NCBI RefSeq assembly: GCF_902702775.1
Contig: NZ_LR738724.1
Coordinates: 806,001-870,000 of the forward strand
Direction: 5' to 3'
Source of the DNA: Streptococcus suis
GTDB lineage: Bacteria > Bacillota > Bacilli > Lactobacillales > Streptococcaceae
Length of the DNA stretch: 64,000 nucleotides
The notes under the pieces are model-generated. The model saw only the letters and a list, made by a program, of their open reading frames with translations. It made no database searches and had not been told where the DNA came from. Positions 3,438 through 59,442 of the stretch are shown here, piece after piece. Numbering within the stretch: the first letter of the stretch is position 1; every line of letters starts with the position of its first letter. The position numbers were made by a program, and so were the translations under genes.

Positions 3438-4031
3438 TTATCCTAATAATTGCTGCAACCATTGGCTTCCATAGATCCAAAAGAAGCTATAGGCCACAAC
3501 TGAGAAGGGGCGACAAAGTAAAGTGATAATAATAAATTTCCGATAACTCATGCTTGTTAATCCAGTAATCATCACCACTATGTCAGCTGGAGAAATGGGA
3601 GAAAGCATGCAGAGAATAAAGAAAATTTCATAACTACGTTTATTATCAATTTTGCTTTCATATTTGTAAAACGTATCTTCAGACATGAAGAGGAGACAAA
3701 ATTTCTTTCCATAGCGACGAGCCAACCAGAAAAGGATGATACTACCGATTGAAATTCCAAGATAATTGAGAAAGAATCCCCACCAAAAATGAAATACGAG
3801 GAAACCCACAACAGTCGTAACACCGCCTGGAATAATCGGAAATACAACTTGAATAATCTGAATAGCTAAAAAGGAGAGGCTACCTAAAGCACCTTGGCTT
3901 TTGATTAAATCGCTTAAGACATTTTGGTCGTTCAAAATGCCAATCTTATAGAGCCAAAACAGAAAAATAGCAGTCCCGATAAGGGTCAAAATACTTAATA
4001 CTTGAATGGTTTTTTGCCAAAATTTATACAT
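3438..4031 (-). CDS. TVP38/TMEM64 (VTT-domain) membrane protein
   Basis: 197 aa with about five hydrophobic segments. The core carries the VTT/SNARE-associated pattern: PIIPGGVTTVVGFL, a GISIGSIILFWLARRYG segment and a C-terminal SPADIVVMITGLTSM stretch. Members of this superfamily are membrane proteins linked to lipid scrambling or undecaprenyl-phosphate handling; no specific role can be assigned here. It faces aguB and diverges from ssrA. The start ATG has no Shine-Dalgarno; an extended -10 ends six bases before it, so the mRNA is probably leaderless. Confidence 0.8.
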   Translation of the reverse strand: MYKFWQKTIQVLSILTLIGTAIFLFWLYKIGILNDQNVLSDLIKSQGALGSLSFLAIQIIQVVFPIIPGGVTTVVGFLVFHFWWGFFLNYLGISIGSIILFWLARRYGKKFCLLFMSEDTFYKYESKIDNKRSYEIFFILCMLSPISPADIVVMITGLTSMSYRKFIIITLLCRPFSVVAYSFFWIYGSQWLQQLLG

Positions 4032-4046
4032 ACTTTCATTTTACCA
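4029..4046 (-). promoter_or_regulatory. Extended -10 promoter placed for a leaderless mRNA (TVP38-type gene)
   Basis: Reading the minus strand: TGG-TAAAAT, then GAAAGT, then ATG. The expected +1, seven bases after the -10, is the A of ATG. No purine-rich ribosome site lies between. Confidence 0.5.
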
Positions 4047-4090
4047 TATTTCAAAATTTTTTTAAATTGTAAGGAAAATGTAAAATAATT

Positions 4091-4119
4091 TTGCTATTTA
4101 TAAAAAATTCTGCTATAAT
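4091..4119 (+). promoter_or_regulatory. ssrA promoter
   Basis: TTGCTA at 4091-4096, 17-bp spacer, TATAAT at 4114-4119 preceded by TGC (extended -10). The start of transcription would fall about 15 bases before the mature tmRNA 5' end. Confidence 0.75.
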
Positions 4120-4140
4120 GGTTCCTGTATCAAATCCTAC

Positions 4141-4485
4141 GGGGTTGTTACGGATTCGACAGGCATTATGAGGCTTGTTCTGCAACTCATCGGCAGATGT
4201 AAAAATGCCAGTTAAATATAACTGCAAAAAATACAAACACTTACGCATTAGCAGCTTAATAACCTGCCTGCGTGACCAGTCGCGAATTGCTTGTGTTTGC
4301 TGATTGGTCTTAAAATAGCAAGCTACGTTGGGATTGAGTCAGGCAGTTCCAAAAGAGATTTACTGACTCGCTTGGTCTAGGTTTGAGTTATGTATCGAGT
4401 TCAAGTTAAAGCAAGACATAACCTATGGTTGTAGACGAATAAGTTAGCAGGTGTTTGGACGTGGGTTCGACTCCCACCAGCTCCA
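4141..4485 (+). ncRNA. ssrA: tmRNA
   Basis: Begins GGGGUUGUUACGGAUUCGAC and ends GGUUCGACUCCCACCAGCUCCA, so the tRNA-like acceptor stem pairs (GGGGUUG with CAGCUCC) and CCA is encoded. The tag frame reads (Ala)-KNTNTYALAA-stop at about 4207-4239, the usual streptococcal degradation tag. The middle part holds the pseudoknot domains. It rescues stalled ribosomes with SmpB. It has its own consensus promoter, and tRNA-Ser follows after 5 bp, so the two are probably processed from one transcript. Confidence 0.97.
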
Positions 4486-4490
4486 TATAT

Positions 4491-4578
4491 GGAAGATTAC
4501 TCAAGAGGCTCAAGAGGCCGTGTTGGAAACGCGGTAGGCGTGTAACAGCGTGCGTGGGTTCGAATCCCATGTCTTCCG
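4491..4578 (+). tRNA. tRNA-Ser (anticodon GGA)
   Basis: 88 nt with acceptor stem GGAAGAT/GTCTTCC, anticodon arm CCGTG-TTGGAAA-CGCGG (anticodon GGA at 4525-4527, reads UCC and UCU), a long variable arm typical of tRNA-Ser, and T-loop GGTTCGAATCC. CCA is not encoded. It lies 5 bp after ssrA. Confidence 0.96.
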
Positions 4579-4589
4579 TATGTTATTGA

Positions 4590-4617
4590 AGAACGACTGA
4601 TAGTCGTTCTTTTTTTT
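4590..4617 (+). terminator. Terminator of ssrA-tRNA-Ser transcript
   Basis: Perfect 9-bp stem AGAACGACT / AGTCGTTCT with a GAT loop followed by a run of eight T. Confidence 0.9.
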
Positions 4618-4755
4618 ATGGCTTCGAGCCAGTTTTTCTCGTAGAGAAAAACAAGAAAACCACCAGCTATGCTGGTGGTTGACAAGGCTTTGAGCTTCCA
4701 TTTCTTTTTCCTGATATAATCTAATTGTTCAGGTTAGATAAAGGAGGAAAAAGAA

Positions 4756-5145
4756 ATGGCTAAAACCAGTTACAGTTTATCACATACCAAATGGATGTGC
4801 AAATATCACATAGTTTTCACACCTAAGTACCGTAGAAAATCCATTTACTACAAAATAAGGCAGGGCTTAATTGATATTTTCCGTCATCTATGTCGATACA
4901 AAGGCGTGGAAATTATTGAGGGACACATGCTGCCAGACCATGTTCATATGCTTGTCTTGATACCCCCAAAACTTTCGATTTCCGATTCTATGGGATATTT
5001 GAAAAGTAAAAGTGCTCTAATGATATTTGATAAACACGCTAATTTGAAATATAAGTATGGAAATCGAAAGTTTTGGGCTAGAGGCTACTATGTTAGTACC
5101 GTTGGGCTGAACGAAAAGACAGTTGCGAAATACATTCGCGAGTAA
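4756..5145 (+). pseudogene. tnpA: IS200-type Y1 transposase TnpA, prematurely stopped
   Basis: 129 codons before a TAA. The HUH metal-binding motif is present (HMLPDHVHML, about residues 57-66), as is the KYIRE segment near residue 126, whose Tyr is probably the DNA-linking nucleophile (inferred from the family). Usual IS200 transposases continue about 25 residues further. That missing tail is readable in the same frame at 5176-5250 (DIALDKLSVKEYEDPFSDG..., stop at 5248). The two parts are separated by a perfect palindrome at 5145-5171 that brings two in-frame stops. A strong ribosome site AAAGGAGG precedes the ATG. Confidence 0.8.
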
Positions 5146-5171
5146 ACAACTAATCTGGGAGATTAGTTGTT
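5145..5171. repeat. Perfect 27-bp palindrome disrupting the transposase
   Basis: AACAACTAATCT-GGG-AGATTAGTTGTT, a 12-bp perfect stem. It stands where homologous transposases read on from YIRE toward DIALDKL, and it introduces TAA (5143) and TAG (5164) in frame. Confidence 0.85.
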
Positions 5172-5175
5172 CAAT

Positions 5176-5250
5176 GACATTGCACTTGATAAATTGAGCG
5201 TCAAAGAGTATGAAGATCCATTTTCAGATGGCAGTTTTAGAACAAGATAA
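5176..5250 (+). pseudogene. Detached C-terminal tail of the IS200-type transposase
   Basis: 24 codons in the same frame as tnpA (DIALDKLSVKEYEDPF..., ending RTR-stop). This is the standard C-terminus of IS200 transposases, now cut off by the palindrome. The rest of the gap up to 5499 holds the right-end hairpins of the element and the promoter region of add. Confidence 0.7.
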
Positions 5251-5499
5251 AAGCCCGTTGTTACGGGCATTAGTCAAGCAATTATAGCACTAACCTGAAC
5301 GAAGTTCAGCGAACGTCTTTAGACGTCGCTGGAGAGAAACGGCTTATAGCCGGTGTACAAGCCACCCGTTTTCACGGGTGGTTATGACTGTCTGTGAATG
5401 ATACAACTGAAAACAAGTGAAAGTTCAGGTTTTATGGTAAAATTCTTGTTTTTCTTCAAAAATATGATATGATAGTTAACAATATACCAGACGGAGGTC

Positions 5500-6510
5500 G
5501 TGTTAACAGTGTTGAATGTAAATGAATTGGTCAAAACAGAGTTGCATTGTCATTTGGATGGCTCATTGTCCCTCGGAGTCATTCGACAATTGGCACAGAT
5601 GGCTAAAATCACTGTTCCTGCAGAAGATGAAGCATTAAGAAAATTAGTTAGTGTTCATGGAAAAGTTGATAGTTTAATGGCTTATTTAAAGTTATTTGAT
5701 TTTGTTCGCCCACTCTTACAAACTGCATCAGCTTTAGAATTGGCAGCCTATAATCTTGTACGACAAGCTGCAAGAGATAAGATCATTTACATTGAGGTTC
5801 GTTTTGCACCAGAACTGTCGACGGATCAAGACTTGACTATTTTAGAAGCGGTTTCAGCAGTTTTAGTTGGACTAAACAGGGGGCAGGAAGATTTTGGAGT
5901 GGTTGCTAAACTTTTGGTTTGTGGTTTAAAGCAAACGAAACCGAGTCAAACGAAGGAACTTTTTTCGGCTATTGCTGATTTGGCACCAAAAGGACTTGTG
6001 GGATTTGATTTCGCAGGAAATGAAGCAGACTATCCTACGGAAGAACTTCGGGATATTATTCAATTTACTCAGGCACTAGGTTATCCCATGACTTTCCATG
6101 CCGGAGAATGTGGATGTGTGACCAATGTGATTCAAGCTCTTGAACTTGGGATTAGAAGGATTGGTCATGGCACAGCACTTACTCGCAATCCTGAAGCTAT
6201 CCAAGCTTTTGTCAATAGCGGAGCAACACTTGAAATGTGCCTAACATCGAATCTTCAAACTGGTGCAGCTGATTCGATTGAGTATTTTCCATATCATGAG
6301 CTAGTTGAGGCAGGAGCAAACATCACAATCAACACAGATAATCGTACAGTTTCTAATACTACACTTAATAGAGAATATCAATTATTTGTAGAATATTTTG
6401 GGACTAGCAAGGCTGATTTTTATCGCTTCAATCAAAACGCAATTCAGGCAAGTTTTGCCAGCGAAGAAGAAAAGAAAGTTTTGTTGGAACTCCTAGACCA
6501 ACAGTATTAA
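5500..6510 (+). CDS. add: Adenosine deaminase
   Basis: About 333-336 aa. It deaminates adenosine and deoxyadenosine to inosine in purine salvage. Zinc and catalytic motifs of the amidohydrolase barrel are visible: HCHLDGS near the start, FHAGECG, IGHGTAL and TINTDNRTVS. The start is not certain: GGAGG at 5493-5497 leaves only 2 bases to the GTG at 5500 but 11 to the GTG at 5509, which I consider more likely. It is monocistronic, and a bidirectional terminator follows. Confidence 0.93.
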   Translation: MLTVLNVNELVKTELHCHLDGSLSLGVIRQLAQMAKITVPAEDEALRKLVSVHGKVDSLMAYLKLFDFVRPLLQTASALELAAYNLVRQAARDKIIYIEVRFAPELSTDQDLTILEAVSAVLVGLNRGQEDFGVVAKLLVCGLKQTKPSQTKELFSAIADLAPKGLVGFDFAGNEADYPTEELRDIIQFTQALGYPMTFHAGECGCVTNVIQALELGIRRIGHGTALTRNPEAIQAFVNSGATLEMCLTSNLQTGAADSIEYFPYHELVEAGANITINTDNRTVSNTTLNREYQLFVEYFGTSKADFYRFNQNAIQASFASEEEKKVLLELLDQQY

Positions 6511-6511
6511 G

Positions 6512-6555
6512 AAAAAAGCTCTATACCAGTCGATTAGACCAGTAAAGAGCTTTTT
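6512..6555. terminator. Bidirectional terminator between add and the ABC permease gene
   Basis: AAAAAGCTCT and AGAGCTTTTT pair around a loop of about 23 nt; both sides carry A/T runs. It serves two convergent genes and overlaps the permease stop codon. Confidence 0.75.
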
Positions 6556-7336
6556 ATTGTAGATTTAATTTCTTTGTCATAATGAAGTGGGTTCCAAAGT
6601 AGTAAGCAAAAGCTAGGATAATATTGACTAATGCTAAGACTGGACTTGGATAGAGAGAAAATGGTGTAGAATAAGTTGTTACTAGGTTGCTTAGGACAAA
6701 GAAAGTGCTAAATACTCCAGTAACGATGAGAATGCCGATATACGTCAAGATTGCAAAGAGGAAGCGATGATCCTTGAATAATTGACCGACAGATATAGAG
6801 AAGTAGATCAAAAGGATACCAGTAGTAATTTCAATTAAATAATAGACAATCTGACTGAATAGAACTGTCCAGTCGATATCTTGAACAAAAGTTTGTATTT
6901 CTGGCATAATAGCCTCTTCGCTTGCTACTAGAATGACTGCAAGGATGATTCCGATTGAAAGTAAACAAGTAATCCCTGCCAAGACATACCAAACAATAGA
7001 TGCAAGCAGTTTGCTTAAGATGATTTGATGGCTAGATACGGGCAAGGTCATAGTGAGATAACCTTGTCGGCCATAAACATTTTTTCTAAAACGATTGATG
7101 ACTAGGACAAATGTTGATAGGAAGAGTGCCGCAATCAAAACTCCGAAAGTCATAAAGGAGGTTCCCAATAAGACCATCTCTCCACCACCAGGTTCAGTAT
7201 TACCAGCCTGTGCACGGAGGGTCAATGCTTGTAGCCAAAAACCAAGTACTGCTGATAGGGCTAGAGCTGCAATATAAATTCCCAAATACCATTTACCTAC
7301 GGATTGAAATTCGTATTTCAATAATTTTTTAAACAT
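6554..7336 (-). CDS. ABC transporter permease (YtrC/D-like export type)
   Basis: 260 aa with six predicted membrane spans (for example IYIAALALSAVLGFWL, VLIAALFLSTFVLVI, LAGITCLLSIGIILAVILV). It is the membrane partner of the ATPase encoded just upstream (16 bp apart) and the last gene of a GntR-ABC operon. Such regulator-ATPase-permease sets (ytr-like) answer cell-envelope stress or expel antimicrobial compounds; the substrate cannot be told from sequence. Confidence 0.8.
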   Translation of the reverse strand: MFKKLLKYEFQSVGKWYLGIYIAALALSAVLGFWLQALTLRAQAGNTEPGGGEMVLLGTSFMTFGVLIAALFLSTFVLVINRFRKNVYGRQGYLTMTLPVSSHQIILSKLLASIVWYVLAGITCLLSIGIILAVILVASEEAIMPEIQTFVQDIDWTVLFSQIVYYLIEITTGILLIYFSISVGQLFKDHRFLFAILTYIGILIVTGVFSTFFVLSNLVTTYSTPFSLYPSPVLALVNIILAFAYYFGTHFIMTKKLNLQ

Positions 7337-7352
7337 AGCAATCTCCTTCTAA

Positions 7353-8060
7353 CTAAGCCTTAAAATCTTGGCGGAAGAGTTCATCAATAGATTCTCCGCT
7401 TTCAATTCGCAAGTCATCTACATTTCCATGGCGAATAACACTTCCGTAGTGTAGGAAAATAACCTCGTCCAAAATTTGCTCGACATCTGAAATTAAGTGA
7501 GTAGAGATAATAACAGAGGCAGTCGGAGAGTAGTTGTTGACGATGGTTTTTAAAATGTAGTCTCGAGCGGCAGGGTCAACACCACCAATTGGCTCATCTA
7601 AAACATACAGCTGCGCTTGACGACTCATCACCAGAATGAGTTGGACTTTTTCCTTATTCCCCTTAGAGAGATGTTTCATACGACTGTTTAAATCAATGCC
7701 CAAATCTTGTAAAAGATGGAGAGCACGCTCCTTATCAAAATCAACGTAAAAATCTTCAAAAAATGTAATTGCTTCGAGCACTTTCATATGCTCATCGAGA
7801 TAAGTCGTATCTGGGAGATAAGACACAATTGCCTTGGTTTCTGGCGATGGGGTACGACCATTGATCAATACTTGACCATATTCTGGTTGCAACAGACCGT
7901 TGATCAATTTAATCATGGTCGTTTTACCCGAACCATTTGGTCCCAAAAGTCCTATGATTTTTCCAGCAGTCAGCTTCAAATTGACATTATTTAGGGCGAC
8001 AGCGCCACCATAAGATTTTGAAACTTGTTGTAGCTCAACCAAAGTATATGCGTTATTCAT
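7353..8060 (-). CDS. ABC transporter ATP-binding protein
   Basis: 235 aa with Walker [11 protein letters not shown], signature HLSKGNKEK, Walker [13 protein letters not shown] and a switch histidine in ISTHLISD. It powers the adjacent permease. The start overlaps the GntR gene by 8 bp, so regulator and ATPase are translationally coupled. The signature SKGNKEK (instead of SGGQ) is common in YtrB/YhcH-type exporters. Confidence 0.88.
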
Positions 8061-8427
8061 AAGTGACTCCTTTCAAATAATCATCTAACTGGCCAGTGAG
8101 GTCGTCGTGTTTGAACCCCAAATCTAACATATTGTTCACAAAATTCTCGAGTTCCTTTTGTGCTAAATGTAGGCGAGTGTGTGTAATCAATTCTTGATTA
8201 TCTGTTACAAAACGACCTGTTGTGCGAACCGAATAAACAAAGCCTTCCGTTTCTAAATCAGACAAAGCGCGCTGAACGGTATTTGGATTGACGCCAGCAA
8301 TTTCGGCTAAGTCACGAACAGTGGGAAGTTTATCTCCAGATTTTAATTGATTAGTCACAATCTGCAATTTAATAGTATTGCTGATTTGAATATAGATGGG
8401 GATGTTATTATCAAATTTCCAAGCCAT
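8053..8427 (-). CDS. GntR-family regulator, YtrA subfamily
   Basis: 124 aa. The N-terminal winged helix is clear (PIYIQISNTIKLQIV, GDKLPTVRDLAEIAGVNPNTVQRALSDLE) with only a short C-terminal tail, as in the YtrA subfamily. I chose the ATG at 8425-8427, which follows GAAAGGAAACGATT; the frame is open further upstream but without a ribosome site. As first gene of the operon it probably represses itself and the ABC genes. Confidence 0.85.
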   Translation of the reverse strand: MAWKFDNNIPIYIQISNTIKLQIVTNQLKSGDKLPTVRDLAEIAGVNPNTVQRALSDLETEGFVYSVRTTGRFVTDNQELITHTRLHLAQKELENFVNNMLDLGFKHDDLTGQLDDYLKGVTYE

Positions 8428-8581
8428 AATCGTTTCCTTTCTAGGATGACACCCGTGTGCATGTCTTATCTTAATAATACAACAAACTATATAAATTAGC
8501 AAGAAAAATGTTTTGAATTTTTAAAAAATATTTTTGGATAAATATTTGATATAATAGAAGAAACATAAAAAGGAGAATACC

Positions 8582-11692: not shown

Positions 11693-11773
11693 AAAAATAG
11701 CAAAAAGTCAAGCAAGTTTAGGTTAAGTATGTTATAATAGGGCAGTTAAAATGAAAAGTTAAAGGAGCATTAA

Positions 11774-12787
<1,014 letters not shown>

Positions 12788-12853
12788 GCATCGTTGTTTT
12801 AAAGTGTTAATTAAGGGTCATAAGACCATTGAAATAAAAGGAGTTTTGTTAAG

Positions 12854-20722: not shown

Positions 20723-21832
20723 TTATTTTTTGAGAATATATCTATTTGGAGAATATGGTGTACGGTCAAAGTTTGTTTCTTGATTGAGAATTTCTTTAGC
20801 AATTTGCCAACCGATAATTGGGCCATTTGTCAGGCCGGTAGAGCCTAGACCACTAGCTACCCAGACATTAGGCATATCCTCAATATTTCCGTAGAATGGT
20901 GAATAAGTTGAAGTGTAGGCGCGCGTTCCAATGCGAGTTCTGGCTACAGGATAGTTTGCCAAATCAGGCATGAATTCAGCTATTTTATCATGCATGGCTT
21001 GGATTTTTTCAGGGTCTAGTTCTAAATCGTACCCCATATCATCTTCATGAGTTGCACCAATAATGATTTTTCCATTTTCAAATGGTAGGATGTCAATCTC
21101 TCCGTAAGGCATACAAACTGGCCAATTATCAGTATCGAATTCTGTATCTAATTCTAACAATTGTCCTTTTTGTGGTCGAACATCCACTTGATAACCAAGA
21201 GGTTCAAGAATATGTGGCAACCAGGCCCCTGTGGCTAAGATAATATGGTCAGCAGTAAGCACTTGATTATCTACTTCGACAGTATGGTTGTCGAGCAGTT
21301 TTGCTTGTCCGTAGATACGTGTACCACCATTTTTCAAAAATTGTTCCTGAAGAATATCAATCAAACGCCCACCATCAATACGACCGCCACCTTCTAAATG
21401 GATACCAAAATAGTCTGGTTTAAGTAGTGGCAAGTACTGGTTAATTTCCGAGCCTACAAGCGGAGTAATTTCGCCAATAGTCGGAGTATCTACGCGACGT
21501 TCCTCGGCAATTTTTTGGATTTTATCAAGTAGTTCAGGCTTACTTTTTAGGCCGATGGTTCCAGTCTGTTTGAATGGAATTTCAGTAGCACCCGATTTTT
21601 CCAAATCGGCTACCAATTGACGGTAGAAAACAGCACCATCGGAAGTCAGCTTGTACCAGTCTTTATTTTTTTTCTGAGCCATCCATGGGCAGATGATACC
21701 TGCGGCAGCTCGTGTGGCTGTTCCAATACCTGAATCAATGAGAGTAAGATTGACTTGTTCTTCTTGGGAGAGATAAAAGGCTGCAGTAGAGCCAACAATT
21801 CCTCCGCCTATAATAATAACTTGTTTTTTCAT
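20723..21832 (-). CDS. FAD-dependent oxidoreductase (DAO / glycine oxidase-like)
   Basis: 369 aa. The N-terminal Rossmann motif IIIGGGIVGSTAAFYLSQ binds FAD; GTATRAAAGIICPW, the ILATGAWLP segment and the C-terminal GLGSTGLTNGPIIGWQIAKEI follow the D-amino-acid/glycine oxidase fold. The likely reaction is flavin-dependent oxidation of a secondary or D-amino acid; substrate unknown. The gene stands alone and diverges from the SGNH hydrolase. Its ATG lacks a ribosome site and lies six bases after an extended -10, so the mRNA is probably leaderless. Confidence 0.87.
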   Translation of the reverse strand: MKKQVIIIGGGIVGSTAAFYLSQEEQVNLTLIDSGIGTATRAAAGIICPWMAQKKNKDWYKLTSDGAVFYRQLVADLEKSGATEIPFKQTGTIGLKSKPELLDKIQKIAEERRVDTPTIGEITPLVGSEINQYLPLLKPDYFGIHLEGGGRIDGGRLIDILQEQFLKNGGTRIYGQAKLLDNHTVEVDNQVLTADHIILATGAWLPHILEPLGYQVDVRPQKGQLLELDTEFDTDNWPVCMPYGEIDILPFENGKIIIGATHEDDMGYDLELDPEKIQAMHDKIAEFMPDLANYPVARTRIGTRAYTSTYSPFYGNIEDMPNVWVASGLGSTGLTNGPIIGWQIAKEILNQETNFDRTPYSPNRYILKK

Positions 21833-21847
21833 AAGTTAATTATATCA
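21830..21847 (-). promoter_or_regulatory. Extended -10 promoter placed for a leaderless mRNA (FAD oxidoreductase)
   Basis: Minus strand: TGA-TATAAT, TAACTT, ATG. The expected start of transcription coincides with the start codon. No ribosome site is present. Confidence 0.6.
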
Positions 21848-34312: not shown

Positions 34313-34357
34313 GCGATTATATAAAATTTTTATATATCATCAAAATTCTTTTCTATG

Positions 34358-34375
34358 TGCTATACTAGTTTCATG
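34358..34375 (+). promoter_or_regulatory. Extended -10 promoter placed for a leaderless mRNA (AEC transporter)
   Basis: TGC-TATACT (34358-34366), AGTTTC, ATG (34373). No ribosome site; predicted +1 is the A of ATG. Confidence 0.6.
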
Positions 34376-35287
34376 AATGAACTTGAATTATTAGCTCGTG
34401 CTCTTGGTTTTATCTTTGTTATCGGTTTAGGTTATACATTAAAAGCCAAAGGGATTGTTCGAAGGGAGGATGCGACAATCTTTTCTAGCTTAGTGATGAA
34501 TATTACGCTACCAGCCTCTCTCCTTGTAGCTTCAGCGACAGCCCAAGTATCTATAGATTTATATGTTCCCTTCATATTAGGAATTCTTTGTAATCTTTTT
34601 TTGGATATGGTGGGATACTGGGAGGCAAAGAAGTCTGGTCAACAGACTTCCGTCGGTCTTATGCAGTTATCAGGCTATAATATCGGAACCTTTACACTCC
34701 CATTTGTACAAGCTTTTTTTCCGCTATCTAGTCTACTAAGCGTCATCGTATTTGATGCGGGGAATGCAATCATGGTTTTAGGTGGGAATTACAGTATCGC
34801 AGCTGGTGTGGATGAAGAGCAGGAAAGAATGACCGTTGCAACTTTTATAAAGAATCTTTCACGCTCAGTTCCACTAGTAGTCTATCTAGTTAGCCTATCG
34901 TTAGCAATCTGTTCTATCAAACTTCCACGCGAACTTATCTCTGCGCTGACGATAGCCAGTAACGCCAATCCTTTTTTAGCCATGCTCATGTTGGGAATCT
35001 TGCTTGATTTAAAATTGAATTGGAAAGAAATTAGTCGATTGGCCTATCTTCTCTCTTTGAGGCTAGGTGCGAATATTCTAATAGCAGGGGTCATTTATTT
35101 TCTTCTACCTATTGATAAAACGATGAAAATCATGTTACTGGTCTGTCTAGTCTCTCCGATTTCAGTCATGTCCCCAATATATGCATTAAAGTTAGGTAGT
35201 CGCTCAGCTGAACCTGCCAATGTTAACTCCTTATCTATTTTGGTCAGTCTAGTCATGATGGTTCTTCTTATTTTTCTATTCGTTTAA
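34373..35287 (+). CDS. AEC-family (auxin efflux carrier-like) transporter
   Basis: 304 aa with about ten membrane spans. Family features: N-terminal GFIFVIGLGYTLKAKGIV, LVMNITLPASLLVASA, SGYNIGTFTLPFVQAFF and the C-terminal VCLVSPISVMSPIYALKLG. Such carriers move small organic acids (malate, for example) or amino acids; the substrate is unknown. I start at 34373 because homologues begin there, although the frame has an upstream ATG at 34355 within the promoter. Stands alone, with a terminator behind. Confidence 0.85.
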   Translation: MNELELLARALGFIFVIGLGYTLKAKGIVRREDATIFSSLVMNITLPASLLVASATAQVSIDLYVPFILGILCNLFLDMVGYWEAKKSGQQTSVGLMQLSGYNIGTFTLPFVQAFFPLSSLLSVIVFDAGNAIMVLGGNYSIAAGVDEEQERMTVATFIKNLSRSVPLVVYLVSLSLAICSIKLPRELISALTIASNANPFLAMLMLGILLDLKLNWKEISRLAYLLSLRLGANILIAGVIYFLLPIDKTMKIMLLVCLVSPISVMSPIYALKLGSRSAEPANVNSLSILVSLVMMVLLIFLFV

Positions 35288-42410: not shown

Positions 42411-43055
42411 ATGAAAAATTTGAAAGAAAAAAAGAATCAAGGAACAGTTATTCCGCTTGGAATAGCCAGTTTTAGTTTGTTAATGGGAGTGTCGTTATTA
42501 CTGTTTGCAGGAACAGCAGGTGGACTGAATATTATTTTATCTGTACCGCCTTTAATCGTAGCTGGTCTTGGATTTTTCTATATCAAGTATCGTAGGGAAA
42601 CAACAATTAAGATGTACAATAAAATGTATGACAGGTACCCAGAATTACAGAATAATTTGCAATTATTAGTTGACAAGGCAGATTATTATGATTCTGCAAT
42701 AGGGATAGTCGTTTATAAGCATCTCATTGTTAGCCTCAAAGATGGTATTAAGGTTTTCCATCTCGATGAAGTTGTATGGCTTTACCTCCATATATTAAGG
42801 GGCGGCTTTGCCTCAATTTATTCTCAGACTTTAATGGTCGGTACAGTTTTGAATGATCGCCATACCTTGTTGAGCTTACCAATTTTAGGTACTTCCAGAG
42901 TTGCAGATCCTAATATAGAAAAGTTATTTGAATTTATCGGTGCCAGGCATCCTAAAATTATGTTAGGGTATACCAATGAAAATAACCAATTTTGGGGTGT
43001 TCTTAGGAGCGAGGATAAGAACCAAAAAACAGACTATTTTGATTTTTTACGATGA
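42411..43055 (+). CDS. Membrane protein of unknown function
   Basis: 214 aa from the ATG at 42411 (GAGG seven bases upstream). Two membrane spans near the N-terminus ([39 protein letters not shown]) are followed by a soluble domain of about 140 residues ([36 protein letters not shown]...), possibly PH-like. The frame is open further 5' inside the DUF438 gene but without a start signal. Not recognised. Confidence 0.7.
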
Positions 43056-43093
43056 GTGATTGTTACCGGACCGCCCACAAGAGCGGTCCTTTG

Positions 43094-43111
43094 TGTTATA
43101 ATGAAAACATG
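43094..43111 (+). promoter_or_regulatory. Extended -10 promoter placed for a leaderless mRNA (truB)
   Basis: TGT-TATAAT (43094-43102), GAAAAC, ATG (43109). The hairpin GACCGC-CCACAAGA-GCGGTC just upstream (about 43069-43088) may end the previous transcript. Confidence 0.6.
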
Positions 43112-43987
43112 ATTTCAGGAATTATTAATTTAAAAAAAGAGGCGGGGATGACCTCGCATGATGCAGTTTTTAAACTCCGAAAGATTCTGCAGGAGAAGAA
43201 GATTGGGCACGGTGGGACGCTAGATCCAGATGTGACTGGGGTTCTGCCAATTGCAGTCGGCAAGGCTACTCGTATGATTGAGTACATGCAGGATGAGGGG
43301 AAAATCTACGAGGGGGAGATTACTCTGGGCTACTCGACCACGACCGAAGATGCGTCGGGCGACCTTGTTGAGCGGACACCGGTTTTGGACATAGCAGAGC
43401 AGGTAGTTGATGAGGCTATGGCTAGTTTTGTCGGTACTATTACCCAGATTCCGCCTATGTATTCCGCCGTCAAAGTAAATGGCCGCAAGCTATACGAATA
43501 CGCACGGGCGGGTGAAGAAGTCGAACGTCCCCAACGCCAAATTGACATATATGGTTTTGAACGTACCAGTCCTATTGAATTGGCAGATGACTGTGCACGA
43601 TTTACCTTCCGAGTTCGTTGTGGAAAGGGCACCTACGTCCGTACTCTTTCTGTTGACTTAGGGGCTAAGTTAGGCTACGCCAGCCACATGTCTAAGTTGG
43701 AACGAACTGGGTCAGCAGGAATGGACCTAGCGGACGCCTTAACTTTGGAAGAAATTTCTTTACTGGTAGCAGAAAATGATTTTTCATTTCTCCAACCTAT
43801 TGAACGTGGTATCGGGGATTTACCTGTTGTAGAATTGAAAGAAGAGCAGGTGCAAGATGCTACATTTGGTCGATTTGTAGAATTGGATGCAGAAGCAGAG
43901 CGCTTAGCAGGCTTTCATGATGGTCAGTTGATTGCTATTTTTGAAAAACGCGACCAGCTGTATAAACCGAGCAAGGTTTTGGTCTAA
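43109..43987 (+). CDS. truB: tRNA pseudouridine(55) synthase
   Basis: 292 aa. It makes pseudouridine 55 in the T-loop of tRNAs. Motifs: [17 protein letters not shown] at the N-terminus, [15 protein letters not shown] with the catalytic Asp, [19 protein letters not shown] and [14 protein letters not shown] start at 43109: the conserved [11 protein letters not shown] begins there, although the frame is open to 43052. The ATG has no ribosome site and lies six bases after an extended -10. ribF follows after 34 bp, as is common. Confidence 0.95.
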
Positions 43988-44006
43988 GAAATTTCTCAAT
44001 AACTGT

Positions 44007-44024
44007 GATAAAATAGAAAACATG
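44007..44024 (+). promoter_or_regulatory. Extended -10 promoter placed for a leaderless mRNA (ribF)
   Basis: TGA-TAAAAT (44006-44014), AGAAAAC, ATG (44022). No ribosome site. Spacing is seven bases, one more than in the other cases. Confidence 0.5.
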
Positions 44025-44945
44025 AACATTAGAACAATTAAAGATTATAGTGAATTGAATCAAGAGGAGCCGACGGTTTTAGTACTAGGCTACTTTGATG
44101 GGATTCATCTTGGGCACAAGGCTTTACTTGATCGAGCAAGAAAAGTAGCAGATGAGCAAGGTTTGATAGTAACTGTTCTGACCTTTCCAGAGTCACCTCG
44201 GTTGGCTTTTTCTCGCTTTAGCCCAGAACTTTTACTGCATTTGACTAGTCAAGAGCAACGCTACCTCTTATTGAAAAAATATGGTGTTGATAATCTTATT
44301 TTGACTGATTTTACTAGTGAATTTGCTAACAATACTCCTCAGCAGTTTTTGGAGCGCTATATCAAAGGTCTCAATGCCCAGATTTTGGTCGCAGGTTTCG
44401 ACTATCATTTTGGAAATTGCAGAGCAGATGTCAAAGATTTGGCAGAGCTATTTGATGGCCAGGTAGAAATTGTAAGTGAAGTGAGCCTGGACGGAGAAAA
44501 AGTTTCTTCAACTCGCATTCGTCAGGCTATCCAGTCAGGGGATGTCTCTCTAGCAAATCAACTTTTAGGTTATCCATTTATGACGGAGGGAATTGTTGTT
44601 CATGGAGATGCCAGAGGGCGCACTATTGGTTATCCGACTGCAAATCTGGCTCCTTTTGACCGTGTCCATTTACCATCTGAGGGAGTCTACGTCGCTGATG
44701 TCGAAGTAGATGGAAAACGCTATCGAGCTATGACAAGCGTTGGAAAAAATGTGACCTTTGATGGAACTGAGATGCGGATAGAAGCTCATATTTTTGGGTT
44801 TGACCGCTTTATCTACGGAGAAAAAATAACTATTTTTTGGCTTGAAAAAATTCGAGATATGGTCAAATTTGATGGGATTGAAGGTTTGATGGAGCAGATG
44901 AAATCTGATGAGGAATTTGCCTTGCAATGGGGGAAATATGCTTAA
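44022..44945 (+). CDS. ribF: Bifunctional riboflavin kinase / FAD synthetase
   Basis: 307 aa. The N-terminal nucleotidyltransferase domain has LGYFDGIHLGHKALL (HxGH), AGFDYHFGNCRADV and SSTRIRQAIQSGD; the C-terminal flavokinase domain has GRTIGYPTANL and the TSVGKNVTFDG segment. It converts riboflavin to FMN and FAD. The start at 44022 gives the conserved MNIRTIKDYSEL; the longer frame runs back into truB. It overlaps the next gene by 8 bp. Confidence 0.94.
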   Translation: MNIRTIKDYSELNQEEPTVLVLGYFDGIHLGHKALLDRARKVADEQGLIVTVLTFPESPRLAFSRFSPELLLHLTSQEQRYLLLKKYGVDNLILTDFTSEFANNTPQQFLERYIKGLNAQILVAGFDYHFGNCRADVKDLAELFDGQVEIVSEVSLDGEKVSSTRIRQAIQSGDVSLANQLLGYPFMTEGIVVHGDARGRTIGYPTANLAPFDRVHLPSEGVYVADVEVDGKRYRAMTSVGKNVTFDGTEMRIEAHIFGFDRFIYGEKITIFWLEKIRDMVKFDGIEGLMEQMKSDEEFALQWGKYA

Positions 44946-48539: not shown

Positions 48540-48567
48540 TGGAAATATCTTGTAAATTCTATGTAAA
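48540..48567 (+). promoter_or_regulatory. Pho-box-like direct repeats before pstS
   Basis: TGGAAA (48540), TGTAAA (48551) and TGTAAA (48562) at exact 11-bp steps; on the minus strand this is TTTACA-N5-TTTACA, the form of PhoP boxes. It probably binds the phosphate response regulator (PnpR/PhoP type). A -10-like TAAAAT follows at 48564. Confidence 0.6.
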
Positions 48568-48620
48568 ATACAGAGTTAATTTTAGGAGATTCCACTGAAA
48601 AATGTAAAGGAAAAAACGAA

Positions 48621-49490: not shown

Positions 49491-49492
49491 GC

Positions 49493-51287: not shown

Positions 51288-51311
51288 AAGTCTGACTTAT
51301 AAGGAGAAAAA

Positions 51312-52115: not shown

Positions 52116-52126
52116 AAAGGGAACAA

Positions 52127-52885: not shown

Positions 52886-52911
52886 GCCTGTTAAAAAGAA
52901 AAGAGGTTTAT

Positions 52912-53568: not shown

Positions 53569-53571
53569 TTC

Positions 53572-53597
53572 AGAAGTCCGAGAGGGCTTCTTTTTTA
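53572..53597 (+). terminator. pst-phoU terminator
   Basis: AGAAGTCC-GAGA-GGGCTTCT followed by T6. Confidence 0.88.
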
Positions 53598-53628
53598 TGT
53601 AATAAACTTTTATAAAAATGCTGGATTT

Positions 53629-53661
53629 CTTTAGCTTGGTTTAAGTTTTTAGTAATATACT
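53629..53661 (+). promoter_or_regulatory. CiaR-box-like promoter of the MPPGQGG-repeat gene
   Basis: CTTTAG (53629-53634), five bases, TTTAAG (53640-53645), ten bases, TATACT (53656-53661). The CiaR site described for pneumococcus is NTTAAG-N5-WTTAAG placed 10-11 bp before the -10. One position of the first half differs; spacing is exact. Confidence 0.5.
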
Positions 53662-53733
53662 ATTATCATCAGGTAAAGAGGAGTTATTTAGTGGGCCTCA
53701 TTCTGATAATATTCTATTGAAAAGAGGAATTTC

Positions 53734-54273
53734 ATGTCATTTATTAATCAATTTAAGTCACAGTCAAAAACAGTACTAGCTGCTGTTGTGATTTCAGCTG
53801 CTACCTTGGGCTTTGCAGGGGGAATGAGTATTTCGAAAAGCTCAACAGGAGTTTCAACACAAAGTCAGGCAAGTTTGGCGCAAAATAATTCTGCAGCAAC
53901 GAATGGACAGGTAGCCGCATCTGCGAATACCCAAGGTATGCCACCAGGTCAAGGTGGAGCTCCCCAAGACATGCCACCAGGACAGGGTGGAGTACCCCAA
54001 GGCATGCCACCAGGTCAGGGTGGAACTAGCCAAGGTATGCCACCAGGTCAAGGTGGAGCTCCCCAAGACATGCCACCAGGCCAAGGTGGAGCTAGCCAAG
54101 GCATGCCACCAGGTCAAGGAGGTCCTAGCCAAGGTACAACCCCTCCTGATGCAACAAGTGGAGCAACCCAGTCAAACTCGAGTACTTCTTCTGATGAAGT
54201 GAATGCTTTAAAAGAGAAGAATCAAGAAATTAAAGCTCACATTTCAGGGGATAGTAGTTCTTCTAATCAATAA
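53734..54273 (+). CDS. Secreted/anchored protein with six 11-residue MPPGQGG repeats
   Basis: 179 aa. An N-terminal signal or anchor segment (SKTVLAAVVISAATLGFAGGMSI) is followed by a Ser/Ala/Gln-rich stretch, six perfect-length repeats of Q(G/D)MPPGQGG-x-x (about residues 67-132), and a Ser-rich, charged tail (NALKEKNQEIKAHISGDSSS). It has no LPXTG or Cys. AGAGG is found before the ATG. It is placed directly upstream of ciaRH and has a CiaR-box-like promoter, so membership in the CiaR regulon is inferred. Similar Gly/Pro-rich proteins exist in Firmicutes, but I know of no function. Confidence 0.75.
   Translation: MSFINQFKSQSKTVLAAVVISAATLGFAGGMSISKSSTGVSTQSQASLAQNNSAATNGQVAASANTQGMPPGQGGAPQDMPPGQGGVPQGMPPGQGGTSQGMPPGQGGAPQDMPPGQGGASQGMPPGQGGPSQGTTPPDATSGATQSNSSTSSDEVNALKEKNQEIKAHISGDSSSSNQ
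53932..54129 (+). repeat. Six 33-bp tandem repeats in a coding region
   Basis: Units start at 53932, 53965, 53998, 54031, 54064 and 54097; each begins CAAG(G/A). ATGCCACCAGG and encodes 11 residues. Units 2 and 5 share QDMPP, the others QGMPP, which suggests past duplication of blocks. Length variation by slippage is likely. Confidence 0.92.
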
Positions 54274-54303
54274 ACATTGAGATTTTGGTTTCTACTTGTT
54301 CCA

Positions 54304-54466
54304 TGATATAATGAACACGTATCAATAAATAGTTAGCTAAAGCCTACCCGATCATTCATTTTTAAGATGGTCACAACGGGACTTTATCTAACCATTTCTA
54401 TTAAAGACCATGCCCTGTGTCCAGGTCTTTGGTTTGTTTATTAAACCGAAACATAAGGAGTATATG
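54304..54466 (+). ncRNA. ciaR promoter and structured 5' leader RNA candidate
   Basis: TGA-TATAAT ends at 54312, so transcription should start near 54319, about 148 nt before ciaR. The leader can fold into one long interrupted stem: GTTAG (54332) with CTAAC (54388), TAAAG (54338) with CTTTA (54382), CCCG (54347) with CGGG (54377), and ATCAT (54351) with ATGGT (54367). Two more hairpins follow: AAAGACC/GGTCTTT (54403, 54424) and GGTTT/AAACC (54431, 54443), the latter close to the AAGGAG ribosome site. It does not match a riboswitch class I know. Confidence 0.45.
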
Positions 54467-55138
54467 ATGATTAAAATATTGTTAGTGGAAGATGATTTAA
54501 GCCTATCAAATTCTGTTTTCGATTTCTTAGATGATTTTGCGGATGTTATACAGGTTTTTGATGGCGAAGAGGGCGTTTATGAGGCGGAAACAGGCGTTTA
54601 TGATTTGATTCTTTTGGATTTGATGTTGCCTGAAAAAGATGGCTTCCAAGTTTTGAAAGAGTTACGTGAAAAAGGTGTTACGACCCCTGTTCTGATTACA
54701 ACAGCCAAGGAAAGTCTAGAGGATAAAGGCCATGGTTTTGAATTGGGAGCTGATGACTACTTGACAAAACCGTTTTATTTAGAAGAATTGAAGATGCGAA
54801 TTCAAGCTCTATTAAAACGAGCGGGTAAGTTTAATGAAAACACACTAACTTATGGGGACGTGACCGTTGACTTATCGACAAACTCTACAACTGTAAATGG
54901 CGAAGAAGTTGAATTGCTAGGAAAAGAATTCGATCTACTAGTCTACTTCTTGCAAAATCAAAATGTTATCTTGCCAAAAACTCAAATTTTTGACCGTATT
55001 TGGGGATTTGACAGTGACACTACTATTTCAGTAGTAGAAGTATATGTTTCTAAAATTAGGAAAAAGTTGAAAGGAACGACCTTCGGGGAAAATCTTCAAA
55101 CCCTGCGTAGTGTCGGGTACATTCTAAAAAATGCCTAA
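54467..55138 (+). CDS. ciaR: Response regulator CiaR
   Basis: 223 aa, OmpR family. Receiver domain: [23 protein letters not shown], phosphoacceptor Asp in [26 protein letters not shown] and [11 protein letters not shown]-terminal winged helix: [53 protein letters not shown]. It is near-identical along most of its length to pneumococcal CiaR as I remember it. AAGGAG is six bases before the ATG at 54467 (the ATG at 54464 is too close). It controls competence, beta-lactam tolerance and virulence genes and small csRNAs in streptococci. Overlaps ciaH by 8 bp. Confidence 0.95.
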
Positions 55139-56510
55139 GCGAATCAGAAAATTAGTGTATACGGATAAATTTTCCTTCTTTATCCGTTATTTTGCAGTAT
55201 TTACCCTGATTTTTGGCTTGATGACAGCTATCATTTTTCAATTAATGCGTTCAACTATGTATCAAAATTCCGATAATACCTTGAAACGGATTAAGGAAGA
55301 ACCAGCGATGGCTGTTGGTTTTGCAATCGCAAGAACCTATGAGCCCAACTCTGTCTTTATACTTCAAGATAGCCCAACTAGTGAAGAAACGACGAGCTCT
55401 AGCTCAGATAGCATGCCTGTTTCTAAAGATCAAAAAAATACTAGAGATGGAGATCAGCTGAGATTAGGTGTCAATACTCATGTCTTACTCTATAGTAAAA
55501 GTGGAGAAATGGTCAATCCGGATACTTTTACTGGTTTGGCCGACCTACCGTTAGATAAGGAAAAATTGGGCGAAATTAAGGAAGCAACGGTTGAATCAAG
55601 CTTCGGTATGTCTGAAGATTATCGCTATGTGACGATTGAGCTGGCTACAGATGAACTAGGTTATTATTCGTCCTATGATATAAAATATGCGACAATTTTA
55701 GTGAATGTCAGCCAGATAAAATCCTCCATTGAGACCTATGAATCGACAGTTGCTATTGTTATGGTATCAGCTTGGCTCATTTCTATCTTGGCCAGTATTT
55801 ACCTATCAAATCTTAGCATGCGTCCAATTCTAATCAGCTATCAAAAACAAAAGGACTTTGTCGAAAATGCTAGTCATGAGTTGCGTACGCCGCTGGCTGT
55901 TCTCCAAAATCGTTTGGAGAGCCTGTTTCGCCATCCCGAAGCGACGATTTTAGAGAGTAGTGAAAGCATCGGATCTAGTTTGGAAGAAGTTCGAAATATG
56001 CGATTATTGACAACAAACCTGCTCAATTTGGCTCGTCGTGATGATGGCTTAAAAGTCGATATGATCGATGTCCAACCGAATTATTTTGATGAAATCTTTG
56101 CTAATTACCTTATGATTGCCGAAGAAAATGGAAAAACACTAACAGTTAATAATTTGATTCATCAGCCGATTCGAACAGATAAGGTCCTGATTAAACAGTT
56201 ACTTACCATTTTATTTGACAATGCCATGAAGTATACCGACGATGATGGCAGAATTCAAATTACAGCTAATATCAAGGATAAATCTGTCTACTTCACAGTT
56301 ACCGACAATGGTTTGGGAATCAGCGATGCCGATAAGAAGAAAATCTTTGATCGCTTTTATCGAGTTGATAAGGCCAGAACACGTCAAAAAGGTGGTTTCG
56401 GTCTAGGATTATCGTTGGCTCAGCAAATTATTAAGACACTAGGTGGGAAAATCTCTGTTAGAGATAACCAACCGAAAGGAACTATTTTTGAGGTAGGATT
56501 ACCTAAATAA
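55131..56510 (+). CDS. ciaH: Sensor histidine kinase CiaH
   Basis: 459 aa. Two membrane spans ([22 protein letters not shown] and [21 protein letters not shown]) enclose an extracellular sensor domain of about 170 residues. Then H-box [20 protein letters not shown] (His), N-box [13 protein letters not shown], and G boxes [39 protein letters not shown]. It phosphorylates CiaR. It overlaps the end of ciaR. A terminator follows. Confidence 0.95.
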
Positions 56511-56520
56511 AACAATATTA

Positions 56521-56552
56521 TTAGGCTAGGAAAATTCTAGTCTAATTTTTTT
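56521..56552 (+). terminator. ciaRH terminator
   Basis: TTAGGCTAG-GAAAATT-CTAGTCTAA followed by T7. Confidence 0.9.
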
Positions 56553-56610
56553 GTGTAGTTTGTCAGAAGCCTCCTAATTATGTTATACTTAAACAAGAAT
56601 GGAGGTAAAT

Positions 56611-57840
56611 ATGAGGAAAGTTTCTCGTGGCGTTTTAACCATATTATTGTCGGCGACAGTCCTTTCTGCTTGTTCAGGAGGAGGACAAGAGCTGAGTGAA
56701 CGTTTGGAAGCAGCTAAAATTGAATTTTCTAAAGAAAAAAAGCAACTAGAAGCAGAATTAACAGCATTAAAAGAAGAGGTTCAAGGAAATTTCTACTACC
56801 AACAATTGGATACTGATAAGGAACGTCGTGTCTATCTCCAATTTGTTAATGGACTCAGCAAGTGGATGCAAGTGATTGATATTGATTCTGTTAATGATGA
56901 AATATATTCGCGCGTCTATTTTTCTGTCGCTCATGATTATCCAGAATTTTACTGGCTAACAGATGAAGCGGCAATGACTGGCGGAGTGGATATATTGGAT
57001 TTAGAAGAGCCAGCGTATCCGACTGATTTATCTCCGACACGAAATAAAATAGAAGAGGAAGTGAATAAGATACTTGCTCAGGCACCAACAGGGTCGGACT
57101 ATGAGAAGGTTAAATATTTTTACGAGGTGATTATAAAGCAAACGGATTACGACCTTGAAGCCCTACAGACCAACTCTGTCACGTGGAGAAGCCAAGGAAT
57201 TACCAGTGTACTCTTAGATAAGAAATCGGTTTGTGCTGGCTATAGTCGCACCTTCCAATATTTATGTAAAAAAGCAGGCATTGATTGTATCTATGTCACA
57301 GGGCTTGCAAAAAATGGGCAAAACGGTGAGTTTGGGCATGCTTGGAATCTAATCAAGATAAATGGACAATACTATGGAGTTGATACGACTTGGGGAGACC
57401 CAGTTTTTGATCAAGCTATAAGTGGAGAAGCACATACAGATATTTCATACGATTATCTATGTGTCCCTGATGAAATCTTAGAGAGAAGTAGAATTGCTGA
57501 TACCGACCTCCTCGACTACTGGGGAGAAGAACAATATTACGAACCTAGAGCATTGACCTATCCAAAGTGCACAGATAATTCATTGAATTACTATGTTCAA
57601 AAGGGAGTCTATTTCACAAGCTTTGATGAAGCTGCAGTTTTACAGTCCATCACTGATCAGCGACTACAAGGTACGGATAAAGTAGTCTTGCAATTCGGAA
57701 CAGCAGAAGCAATGCAACAAATGATTACATTGGCCTCTACTGAAAATAATGCTATTTTTCAGGCTTTGGGCGATGTAGGAGAGTATCAGTACTATTATAA
57801 TGATCAAACCTATACATTTGAACTGGCAGATTGGTTCTAA
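56611..57840 (+). CDS. Transglutaminase-like lipoprotein
   Basis: 409 aa from the ATG at 56611 (GGAGG five bases upstream; the ATG at 56599 precedes the ribosome site). Lipobox TVLSACSGG. A coiled segment (LSERLEAAKIEFSKEKKQLEAELTALKEEV) leads to a transglutaminase-fold domain with the Cys-His-Asp triad: SVCAGYSRTFQYLCKKAGI, GEFGHAWNLIKINGQYYGVDTTWGDP. Bacterial members act as proteases or cross-linkers in the envelope. Substrate unknown. It has its own promoter (TTATACT near 56584) and stands alone. Confidence 0.85.
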   Translation: MRKVSRGVLTILLSATVLSACSGGGQELSERLEAAKIEFSKEKKQLEAELTALKEEVQGNFYYQQLDTDKERRVYLQFVNGLSKWMQVIDIDSVNDEIYSRVYFSVAHDYPEFYWLTDEAAMTGGVDILDLEEPAYPTDLSPTRNKIEEEVNKILAQAPTGSDYEKVKYFYEVIIKQTDYDLEALQTNSVTWRSQGITSVLLDKKSVCAGYSRTFQYLCKKAGIDCIYVTGLAKNGQNGEFGHAWNLIKINGQYYGVDTTWGDPVFDQAISGEAHTDISYDYLCVPDEILERSRIADTDLLDYWGEEQYYEPRALTYPKCTDNSLNYYVQKGVYFTSFDEAAVLQSITDQRLQGTDKVVLQFGTAEAMQQMITLASTENNAIFQALGDVGEYQYYYNDQTYTFELADWF

Positions 57841-58070
57841 CGAATTAGTTTGAATCTCAAGGAGCGTATTCTTCCCTAATAATAAAAAAATAGGGAGTGG
57901 GAAAGACATCCATGATGGCTCCGCCTCACCCACAGAATAATGAAAACGAACATAAAGCCCTCACTAGGTGTAGAATCTTAGTGAGGGCTTTGTGGTTGAC
58001 GAGTTAATGATGTTATTCATCGAGGGAAAAATTGATCCACTTTGTCTCGCCTCCTTATGGTGGAAAAAAC
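57841..58070. other. Intergenic region with a strong stem-loop
   Basis: No gene seen. AAAGCCCTCACTA (57954-57966) and TAGTGAGGGCTTT (57979-57991) form a perfect 13-bp stem with a 12-nt loop but no T-run behind, so it may be a terminator remnant or a mobile repeat. CCCTA/TAGGG around 57876-57896 gives a weaker stem. Confidence 0.55.
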
Positions 58071-58101
58071 AAAAAAAAGGAAACCCAAAGGTTTCTTTTT
58101 T
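58071..58101 (-). terminator. rpsT terminator
   Basis: Minus strand: GAAACC-TTTG-GGTTTC followed by C and T8; it lies 3 bp behind the rpsT stop. Confidence 0.9.
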
Positions 58102-58103
58102 AA

Positions 58104-58337
58104 TTAAGCAAGTTTTGATGCAAGACGTGCTTTATCGCGGCTTGCTTTGTTTTTGTGAATCAAACCTTTAGTTTCTGCTTTATCGATTGCTGAACTAGCA
58201 GCACGGAAAAGCTCTTCAGATGGGTTAGCTTCAAATGCTTTGATTGCAGTACGCATAGCTGATTTTTGTGCTGAGTTTTTCTCGTTTTGTTTAACGTTCA
58301 ATTCAGCGCGTTTGATAGCTGACTTAATGTTTGCCAA
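58104..58337 (-). CDS. rpsT: 30S ribosomal protein S20
   Basis: 77 aa. The sequence [35 protein letters not shown]...[23 protein letters not shown] is S20 throughout. The start is TTG at 58335-58337: GGAGGTG stands six bases ahead, and S20 proteins begin (M)ANIKSA; an upstream in-frame ATG would lie before the ribosome site. S20 helps assemble the 30S 5' domain. Usual order with coaA upstream, 73 bp away. Confidence 0.95.
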
Positions 58338-58410
58338 TGGTTTCACCTCCACCCTTTCTTGTACTAACTATACCATTATATCTGAAAAGAGTATTTTTGA
58401 CAAGTGAAAT

Positions 58411-59331
58411 TTATTTTTTTAGATAAATTTTATCAATCTCATGGTTTTCGGCCTTATGAAGAATAATATCAGCACGGTTTCTGGTTGGTTCAATGAATTT
58501 TTCTAAGTTAGCTAGATTAATGTTTTTCCAAGTATTCTGGGCAATAGATAGAATCTCAGGGTACGTCATCTGGGTAAAACGATGGTAATAGTTGTTAGGG
58601 TCATTTTTTGCCAATGTCAATAATTTTTGGAATCGCTCCAAGTACCAGGTTTCAATATGCTCCACATCAGCGTCAACGTATATAGATAGGTCAAAATAGT
58701 CACTGACATAGAGGCGTTGGTTTTGTGGATTTTGAAATACATTGATTCCTTCAACAATCAAGAAATCTGGAGACTTAATCTCCTGAGTTTTGTTGGGGAC
58801 AATATCATAGATTTCATGTGAATAGACAGGAATTTGGCAGTCGTAGCCGTTTTTTATCTTATCAAGGAAATCAATCAATTTCTCCATGTCATAGGACTCA
58901 GGAAACCCCTTTTTATTTAACAGTTGCCGTTCTTCTAAAACCGCATTTGGATGGAGAAATCCATCTGTTGTTACTAATTCAACCTTGGCGTGTTTAAATG
59001 TCCGAGCGATAAGAATTTGCAGCAATCTACTAGTTGTTGATTTGCCGACAGCAACACTTCCAGAAACGCCAATGATAAACGGTTGAGGCTTGATAGTTTT
59101 CTGTAGAAATAAACTCTTCGTAAAATTTAGGTCTTTGCGTGCTTTCCGATAGATATGGATAAGATTAACCAAAGGAAGATAGATGTCAGAAACCTCATGT
59201 AATTGGATGCGGTCGTTAAAACTTTTAATAGAATTTAGTTCGCTTTGACTAAGTGGAATGGTAGTCTTACGATGTAGTTGTTGCCAAGTGGCTCGGTCAA
59301 TTTGTTCAAAATTTAAAAATTCATTTTTCAT
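58411..59331 (-). CDS. coaA: Pantothenate kinase (type I)
   Basis: 306 aa. It phosphorylates pantothenate, the first step to coenzyme A. P-loop [18 protein letters not shown], then [36 protein letters not shown] and [12 protein letters not shown] fit the bacterial PRK-like PanK-I. AGGAAG precedes the ATG. It probably shares a transcript with rpsT and diverges from the nucleoside operon. Confidence 0.95.
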
Positions 59332-59404
59332 ACATAATTCTTCCTATAGGTAAGCGTTTCAATATCGATTTCATTTTATCATATTTTTCATGTAAGAAAA
59401 ACTC

Positions 59405-59442
59405 TTGAAAACGTTTTTAGGAAATGTTATAATAAGTACATG
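59405..59442 (+). promoter_or_regulatory. Leaderless-type promoter of the nucleoside operon with overlapping cre-like site
   Basis: TTGAAA (59405-59410), 17-bp spacer, TATAAT (59428-59433) preceded by TGT, then AAGTAC and ATG (59440). The start of transcription should fall on the ATG. TGAAAACGTTTTTA at 59406-59419 fits the CcpA consensus TGWAANCGNTNWCA except at position 13, and covers the -35. Confidence 0.65.

Follow-up and report, generated by a model that had tools for sequence, protein, structure and literature searches.

The window, as we call the whole 64-kb stretch of Streptococcus suis DNA that was analysed, contains six genes with an extended -10 element 6 or 7 nt ahead of the ATG, and one of them has a further site upstream of its promoter:

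4029..4046, minus strand: TGG-TAAAAT, 6 nt and the ATG of a gene for a VTT-domain (TVP38-type) membrane protein (ORF 3438-4031)
21830..21847, minus strand: TGA-TATAAT, 6 nt and the ATG of a gene for a DAO-family FAD oxidoreductase (ORF 20723-21832; Pfam DAO)
34358..34375, plus strand: TGC-TATACT, 6 nt and the ATG of a gene for a membrane protein called AEC in a first-pass annotation (ORF 34373-35287)
43094..43111, plus strand: TGT-TATAAT, 6 nt and the ATG of truB, tRNA pseudouridine 55 synthase (43109-43987)
44006..44024, plus strand: TGA-TAAAAT, 7 nt and the ATG of ribF, riboflavin kinase/FAD synthetase (44022-44945)
59406..59416, plus strand: cre-like TGAAAACGTTT upstream of the promoter of the RsmC-like gene
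59425..59442, plus strand: TGT-TATAAT, 6 nt and the ATG of a gene for an RsmC-like methyltransferase with an MTS domain (59440-60030)

A string check found all six extended -10/ATG strings at these coordinates and on these strands, where the first-pass annotation had placed them, and the TG stands one base ahead of the -10 hexamer at each (6/6). The VTT domain is a family-model match for the protein of the gene at 4029-4046, and RibF was likewise named by a family model. No family model gave a name to the AEC protein; its name rests on the first-pass annotation, and its -10 hexamer, TATACT, departs from TATAAT. The TruB of the window shares 98% identity with its counterpart in S. suis YS161. 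A mechanical ORF list starts truB at 43052 and AEC at 34355, both upstream of the motif. A tmRNA gene (tag AKNTNTYALAA) begins at 4141 on the plus strand, some 95 bp away from the putative leaderless promoter of the VTT gene on the minus strand, and is directly followed by a tRNA-Ser gene (features within 4029-4579). Next to the extended -10 of truB, a strong hairpin (GGACCGC/GCGGTCC, -14 kcal/mol, 43060-43108) abuts the element; it is probably the terminator of the gene upstream of truB, and other truB loci have differing hairpins at the same place, as judged by eye.

Motifs were counted over the single-contig genome of 2,189,829 bp. The strict form TGNTATAAT-N6-ATG (TGNTATAATN6ATG) gave 28 matches and the reversed pattern 1, so the arrangement is not a product of chance. 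ATG is preferred over GTG/TTG at the motif: with the latter in its place the own genome had 3 matches (3 in the control; 28 with ATG) and the 59 genomes of the family sample 1-12. The looser pattern TGNTANNATN{6,7}ATG matched 99 times and its reversed control 31 times, so about 68 of the looser sites are real and about a third of the 99 are expected by chance; scaling of a 464-kb sample gave a total of about 58 leaderless sites. Five of the 99 looser matches fall in the window (P=0.16), which is no hot spot, six sites in 64 kb being close to the expected rate. Of the 28 strict sites, 26 were accepted as gene heads. L002 was dropped with a frame of only 12 aa, as was L028, a transketolase frame in which the family match starts at a second Met, 24 nt further downstream and preceded by AAGGAG. 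In two other streptococci, L259 and L280 were rejected with the motif inside a tRNA gene (L259:1463-1533 and L280:86-156), which contains TGGTATAATN6ATG by chance; since tRNA genes can hold such chance copies, the genome-wide motif counts are slightly inflated.

The distance between the element and the ATG was determined in the 464-kb sample, consisting of the window and 20 stretches with 394 ORFs of at least 100 aa; at least 5 of 6 hexamer matches were required. The spacing was 6 in nine cases and 7 in five (14 sites in all), spacings 2-5 were empty and the 13 spacings from 8 to 20 together held 11 cases. A separate, leadered peak was found at spacing 25-37, the leadered class of the sample beginning at about 25. 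The excess at spacing 6-7 had a Poisson p of 4e-9; when only the 8 sites beyond the window were counted, p was 4e-4.

The anti-SD pairing energy of the six regions from -20 to -1 had a mean of -3.4 kcal/mol (shuffled -2.6), and none of them reached -6 kcal/mol (0/6) compared with 15 of 17 leadered controls, which confirmed the earlier statement that the six lack a Shine-Dalgarno (SD) site. The controls had a mean of -8.5; their own shuffles came to -5.3, because the control regions are purine-rich. Values close to those of shuffled sequence were also found for the 26 strict sites of the own genome (-1.9 vs -1.7) and for 33 sites of two other species (-2.3 vs -2.1), and pairing was low in 37 sites of a sister genus (G445) as well. 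For these sets, 20 of 24 sites were taken in G091, 20 of 25 in G012 and 40 of 59 in G445, and 7/40 (G091/G012) and 3/40 (G445) were dropped with an ORF under 60 aa. The controls were the first 20 in listing order with spacing 25-30 among the matches listed, leaving out 148954 (seemingly inside a frame), the window's own and the last four; 3 of these 20 loci were dropped, having no ORF of 60 aa.

The expected transcription start was taken from leadered strings with a spacing of at least 18 among the matches listed (n=49). Base 7 after the -10 was a purine in 43 and an A in 36 of them, compared with a mean of 67% purine and 47% A at neighbouring bases (p 9e-4 and 1e-4 for the excess), and therefore +1 is expected on the A of the ATG at spacing 6. 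Base 1 after the -10 is also mostly a purine (42/49), so the signal at base 7 is not unique. In the passages of Slager et al. 2018 (PMC6212727) used here, A is given for 63% of the +1 positions of S. pneumoniae. A pyrimidine before the ATG was considered as an initiator mark (89/96 leaderless sites), but leadered starts often have it too, with 36/49 in the same set of spacing at least 18 among the matches listed (Fisher p 0.004) and 29/35 in leadered strings hand-picked by eye for SD-like leaders, a set superseded by the 49 strings; the pyrimidine was not used for +1 because it is mainly a mark of real start codons. The 80 spacers from other families came from the matches listed, with some repeats of G353 collapsed.

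A -35 match of at least 4 bases was found in 27% of the own 26 sites and 21% of the 33 sites of other species, with 14-15% in shuffled sequence and 35% in leadered controls; no clear -35 difference separates the leaderless from the leadered class. Terminator hairpins abutting leaderless promoters were rejected as a class trait, there being no special link: hairpins of -8 kcal/mol or below occurred at 4/26, 4/33 and 1/37 leaderless sites vs 2/17 controls. The conservation profile keeps only rows with TGnTAnnnT at the given spacing, which makes the TG, TA and T invariant by construction; its informative part comprises the three middle hexamer bases (0.78-0.97), the spacer (0.52-0.68) and the upstream bases (0.62-0.68).

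For five of the six genes, orthologues retain the spacing although the flanking bases drift; the spacer too varies in its bases but not in length. Of the 30 loci of the RsmC-like gene, 28 have a spacing of exactly 6, with protein identities as low as about 65%, and the remaining two have an SD-like stretch; these loci are the best-scoring 30 among 59 Streptococcus genomes, which favours nearer relatives. The truB motif was found in 27 of 80 loci (22 at spacing 6, 5 at spacing 7), with TATAAT at 6-7 without the TG in 4 more. The other 49, chiefly around S. mitis, pneumoniae, gordonii and anginosus, are without the motif, many having a G-rich SD-like stretch and some none. With the motif in S. 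suis and many other streptococci but not in these species, the 80 truB loci (L049-L128) point to an apparent switch of the initiation mode within one genus. ribF was found in 34 of 80 loci, with the motif at spacing 6-9 in 22 (7 in 14, 8 in 4, 6 in 3 and 9 in 1) and absent in 12. Ten of the 30 FAD oxidoreductase loci, namely all those with at least 54% identity, have the motif at spacing 6 or 7, and the VTT gene has it at 6 in 11 of 28 scored loci, again the scored relatives with at least 54% identity; two VTT loci, L208 (55% identity) and L217, were unscorable. Remoter relatives of both are mostly arranged otherwise and are perhaps paralogues. For AEC, the motif was found in 4 of 6 loci, near-identical ones only, the other two having an SD and a leader.

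Taken together, we assign a probability of about 0.9 to the reading that the six genes are expressed from leaderless mRNAs of the class known from Streptococcus. The housekeeping RNA polymerase would recognise the extended -10 (TGn-TAnnnT, with a weak -35) of each gene and would start on the A of the ATG; at ribF, with its spacing of 7, the start would be on that A or adjacent to it. Such an mRNA would have neither a 5' leader nor an SD site and would be translated by the leaderless pathway, in which 70S ribosomes probably start on a 5'-terminal AUG. The form of the polymerase, the translation route and the exact 5' ends are deduced here from the DNA. Of the claims of the first-pass annotation, the leaderless class itself holds up as a reading well supported by the spacing, the absent SD, the preference for ATG and the conservation across species; its being striking does not.

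Among the alternatives, the promoters may be real and the true starts lie downstream behind SD sites of their own, so that the mRNAs would have short leaders. L028 is a likely example of such a downstream start, and in the window in-frame ATGs follow at +39 in truB (SD-like pairing energy -8.3) and at +120 in the RsmC-like gene (-6.4), whereas no in-frame downstream start of the other four genes reaches -5 within 150 nt. In TruB, however, the family match, which is above the curated cut-off, begins at residue 3 and the homologues align from residue 1 or 2, which calls for the first ATG, and the spacing conserved in truB and the RsmC-like gene is that to the first ATG and not to a later one. 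We consider downstream starts improbable. Marginally less probable still is transcription from further upstream, with the -10-like box incidental or secondary and leaders without an SD. Read-through could also reach truB and ribF, which lie close behind upstream genes, but the distance from box to ATG is held across species despite changing upstream bases, and in the 464-kb sample the spacings just below and above 6-7 are empty or thin. A chance origin of the six matches, the DNA being AT-rich, draws something from the 31 reversed-control matches for 99 looser ones but is very improbable in view of the strict counts, the spacing peak and the persistence across species; chance is already refuted for the class, AEC being the weakest single case.

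The strict form occurs in all 98 Streptococcus genomes (12-40 matches each); in the family sample of 59 genomes, 22 Streptococcus had 15-32 matches, the sister genera g199, g204 and g205, which we infer to be Lactococcus-like, 41-62, g200 20-24 and g201-g203 0-5. Other families of the order had 0-12 (102 genomes), and among 199 genomes of Bacillota the top count besides the own genome was 13. In G353 and G354, from other families, the pattern recurs in several identical copies (TGGTATAATAGATGCATG; TGGTATAATTAAATCATG), which may belong to a repeated mobile element.

Leaderless transcripts have been described in the genus and in related bacteria. The dpnII operon of S. pneumoniae is said, in work of Sabelnikov et al. 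from 1995, to have a TGn-TATAAT acting without a -35 and, reportedly, an mRNA beginning at the ATG; as a restriction-modification operon it is not among the six genes here. For S. pneumoniae D39V, the parts of Slager, Aprianto and Veening 2018 (PMC6212727) used here state that 70 of 768 operons (9%) start exactly on the first coding base, that a reporter showed efficient leaderless translation of pbp2A and that a stop codon right after the first ATG abolished the product. In our analysis, pbp2A served as positive control: at L252 and L266, from two other streptococci, it has this motif as well. As far as these parts of the paper go, the genus is the same and the number similar (about 58 or 68 estimated here, 70 there), but the species is another and start sites were measured there and inferred from sequence here. 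A second pneumococcal map (PMC6296669) does not have the word 'leaderless' in its main text. In the passages of Zheng et al. 2011 (PMC3160421) used here, TA-led (leaderless) genes of Firmicutes are placed in the Lactococcus-Streptococcus clade and were not found in Enterococcus and Lactobacillus. The signal (TANNNT near the start) and the clade are the same as here and our taxon counts agree, whereas that study is a prediction over 953 bacterial genomes and these passages name neither the six genes nor the extended -10. The idea that six such genes in 64 kb are striking for Firmicutes has therefore to be given up: in Streptococcus and Lactococcus, leaderless genes are known from the literature as a common minority, and there are 12-40 strict matches per Streptococcus genome.

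The RsmC-like gene heads a run of pyrimidine-nucleoside catabolic genes, judging from the predicted products: in the operon at 59440-63506 it is followed by a pyrimidine nucleoside phosphorylase, DeoC, cytidine deaminase and Bmp domains. The site at 59406-59416 is cre-like by comparison with the cre consensus. Of the 30 loci, 28 have TG[TA]AAACGNTT at most 60 nt upstream of the gene, ending 23, 33 or 34 nt before the ATG, and precisely these 28 carry the leaderless motif. Because nucleoside genes follow and the putative cre-like site is conserved, sugar control of the nucleoside operon seems a likelier regulator there than a leaderless-specific one.

Do the leaderless genes share a function? 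Among the 26 strict genes of the own genome, six encode proteins of DNA repair/replication (RuvB, RecG, Nth, UvrC, LigA, PolA) and six of RNA modification (TruB, RsmC-like, RlmI-like, TrmN6-like, RlmB, TadA); the names RsmC-, RlmI- and TrmN6-like are below curated cut-offs, as are RecG and PolA, whose frames are cut by the locus end. In the two other species, 14 of 33 genes belong to the same categories (two RlmB-like ones below the cut-off), and the motif of UvrC, RlmB and the RlmI-like gene was also found in the sister genus G445. The leadered controls had 1 of 17 (XseA), or 2 of 17 with a weak MutT/Nudix match that came from a rescan of unnamed controls, the E-value of the first scan having been stricter than for the own genes. 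Fisher p was 0.006 for 12/26 vs 1/17, 0.004 for 26/59 vs 1/17 and 0.02 for both against 2/17, with categories that were set after the names were seen. This bias to DNA-repair and RNA-modification enzymes is suggestive only, and may merely reflect low, constant expression. The earlier mention of RNA-modification genes among the six holds as a bias, and RNA processing and modification are likewise over-represented among leaderless genes in the passages of Zheng et al. 2011 (PMC3160421) used here.

A common translation control under stress, also put forward in the first-pass annotation, found no support: the promoters share only the -10 and its spacing, the RsmC-like gene has a cre-like site of its own and, according to the same parts of the pneumococcal study (PMC6212727), an RBS added to leaderless pbp2A left its output unchanged in the conditions used. 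It is unlikely in our view that Streptococcaceae retain the leaderless state by preference on low-copy enzymes of genome repair and RNA modification (RuvB, RecG, UvrC, PolA, LigA, Nth, TruB, RlmB, TadA, RsmC-like), which would give these a translational route in common; if true, the set could react jointly to changes in initiation factors or ribosomes.

In sum, leaderless genes are a known class, and the placing of the six genes in it, ordinary for the family, is well supported by the sequence comparisons. For six genes of the S. suis group, the result indicates where promoter and start codon lie. Further, the counts of 12-40 in Streptococcus and 41-62 in three sister genera vs 0-13 in the other Bacillota sampled suggest that sequence data allow leaderless starts to be called in Streptococcaceae, and truB, which has the motif in only part of the streptococci, would be a natural series for the switching of the initiation mode.
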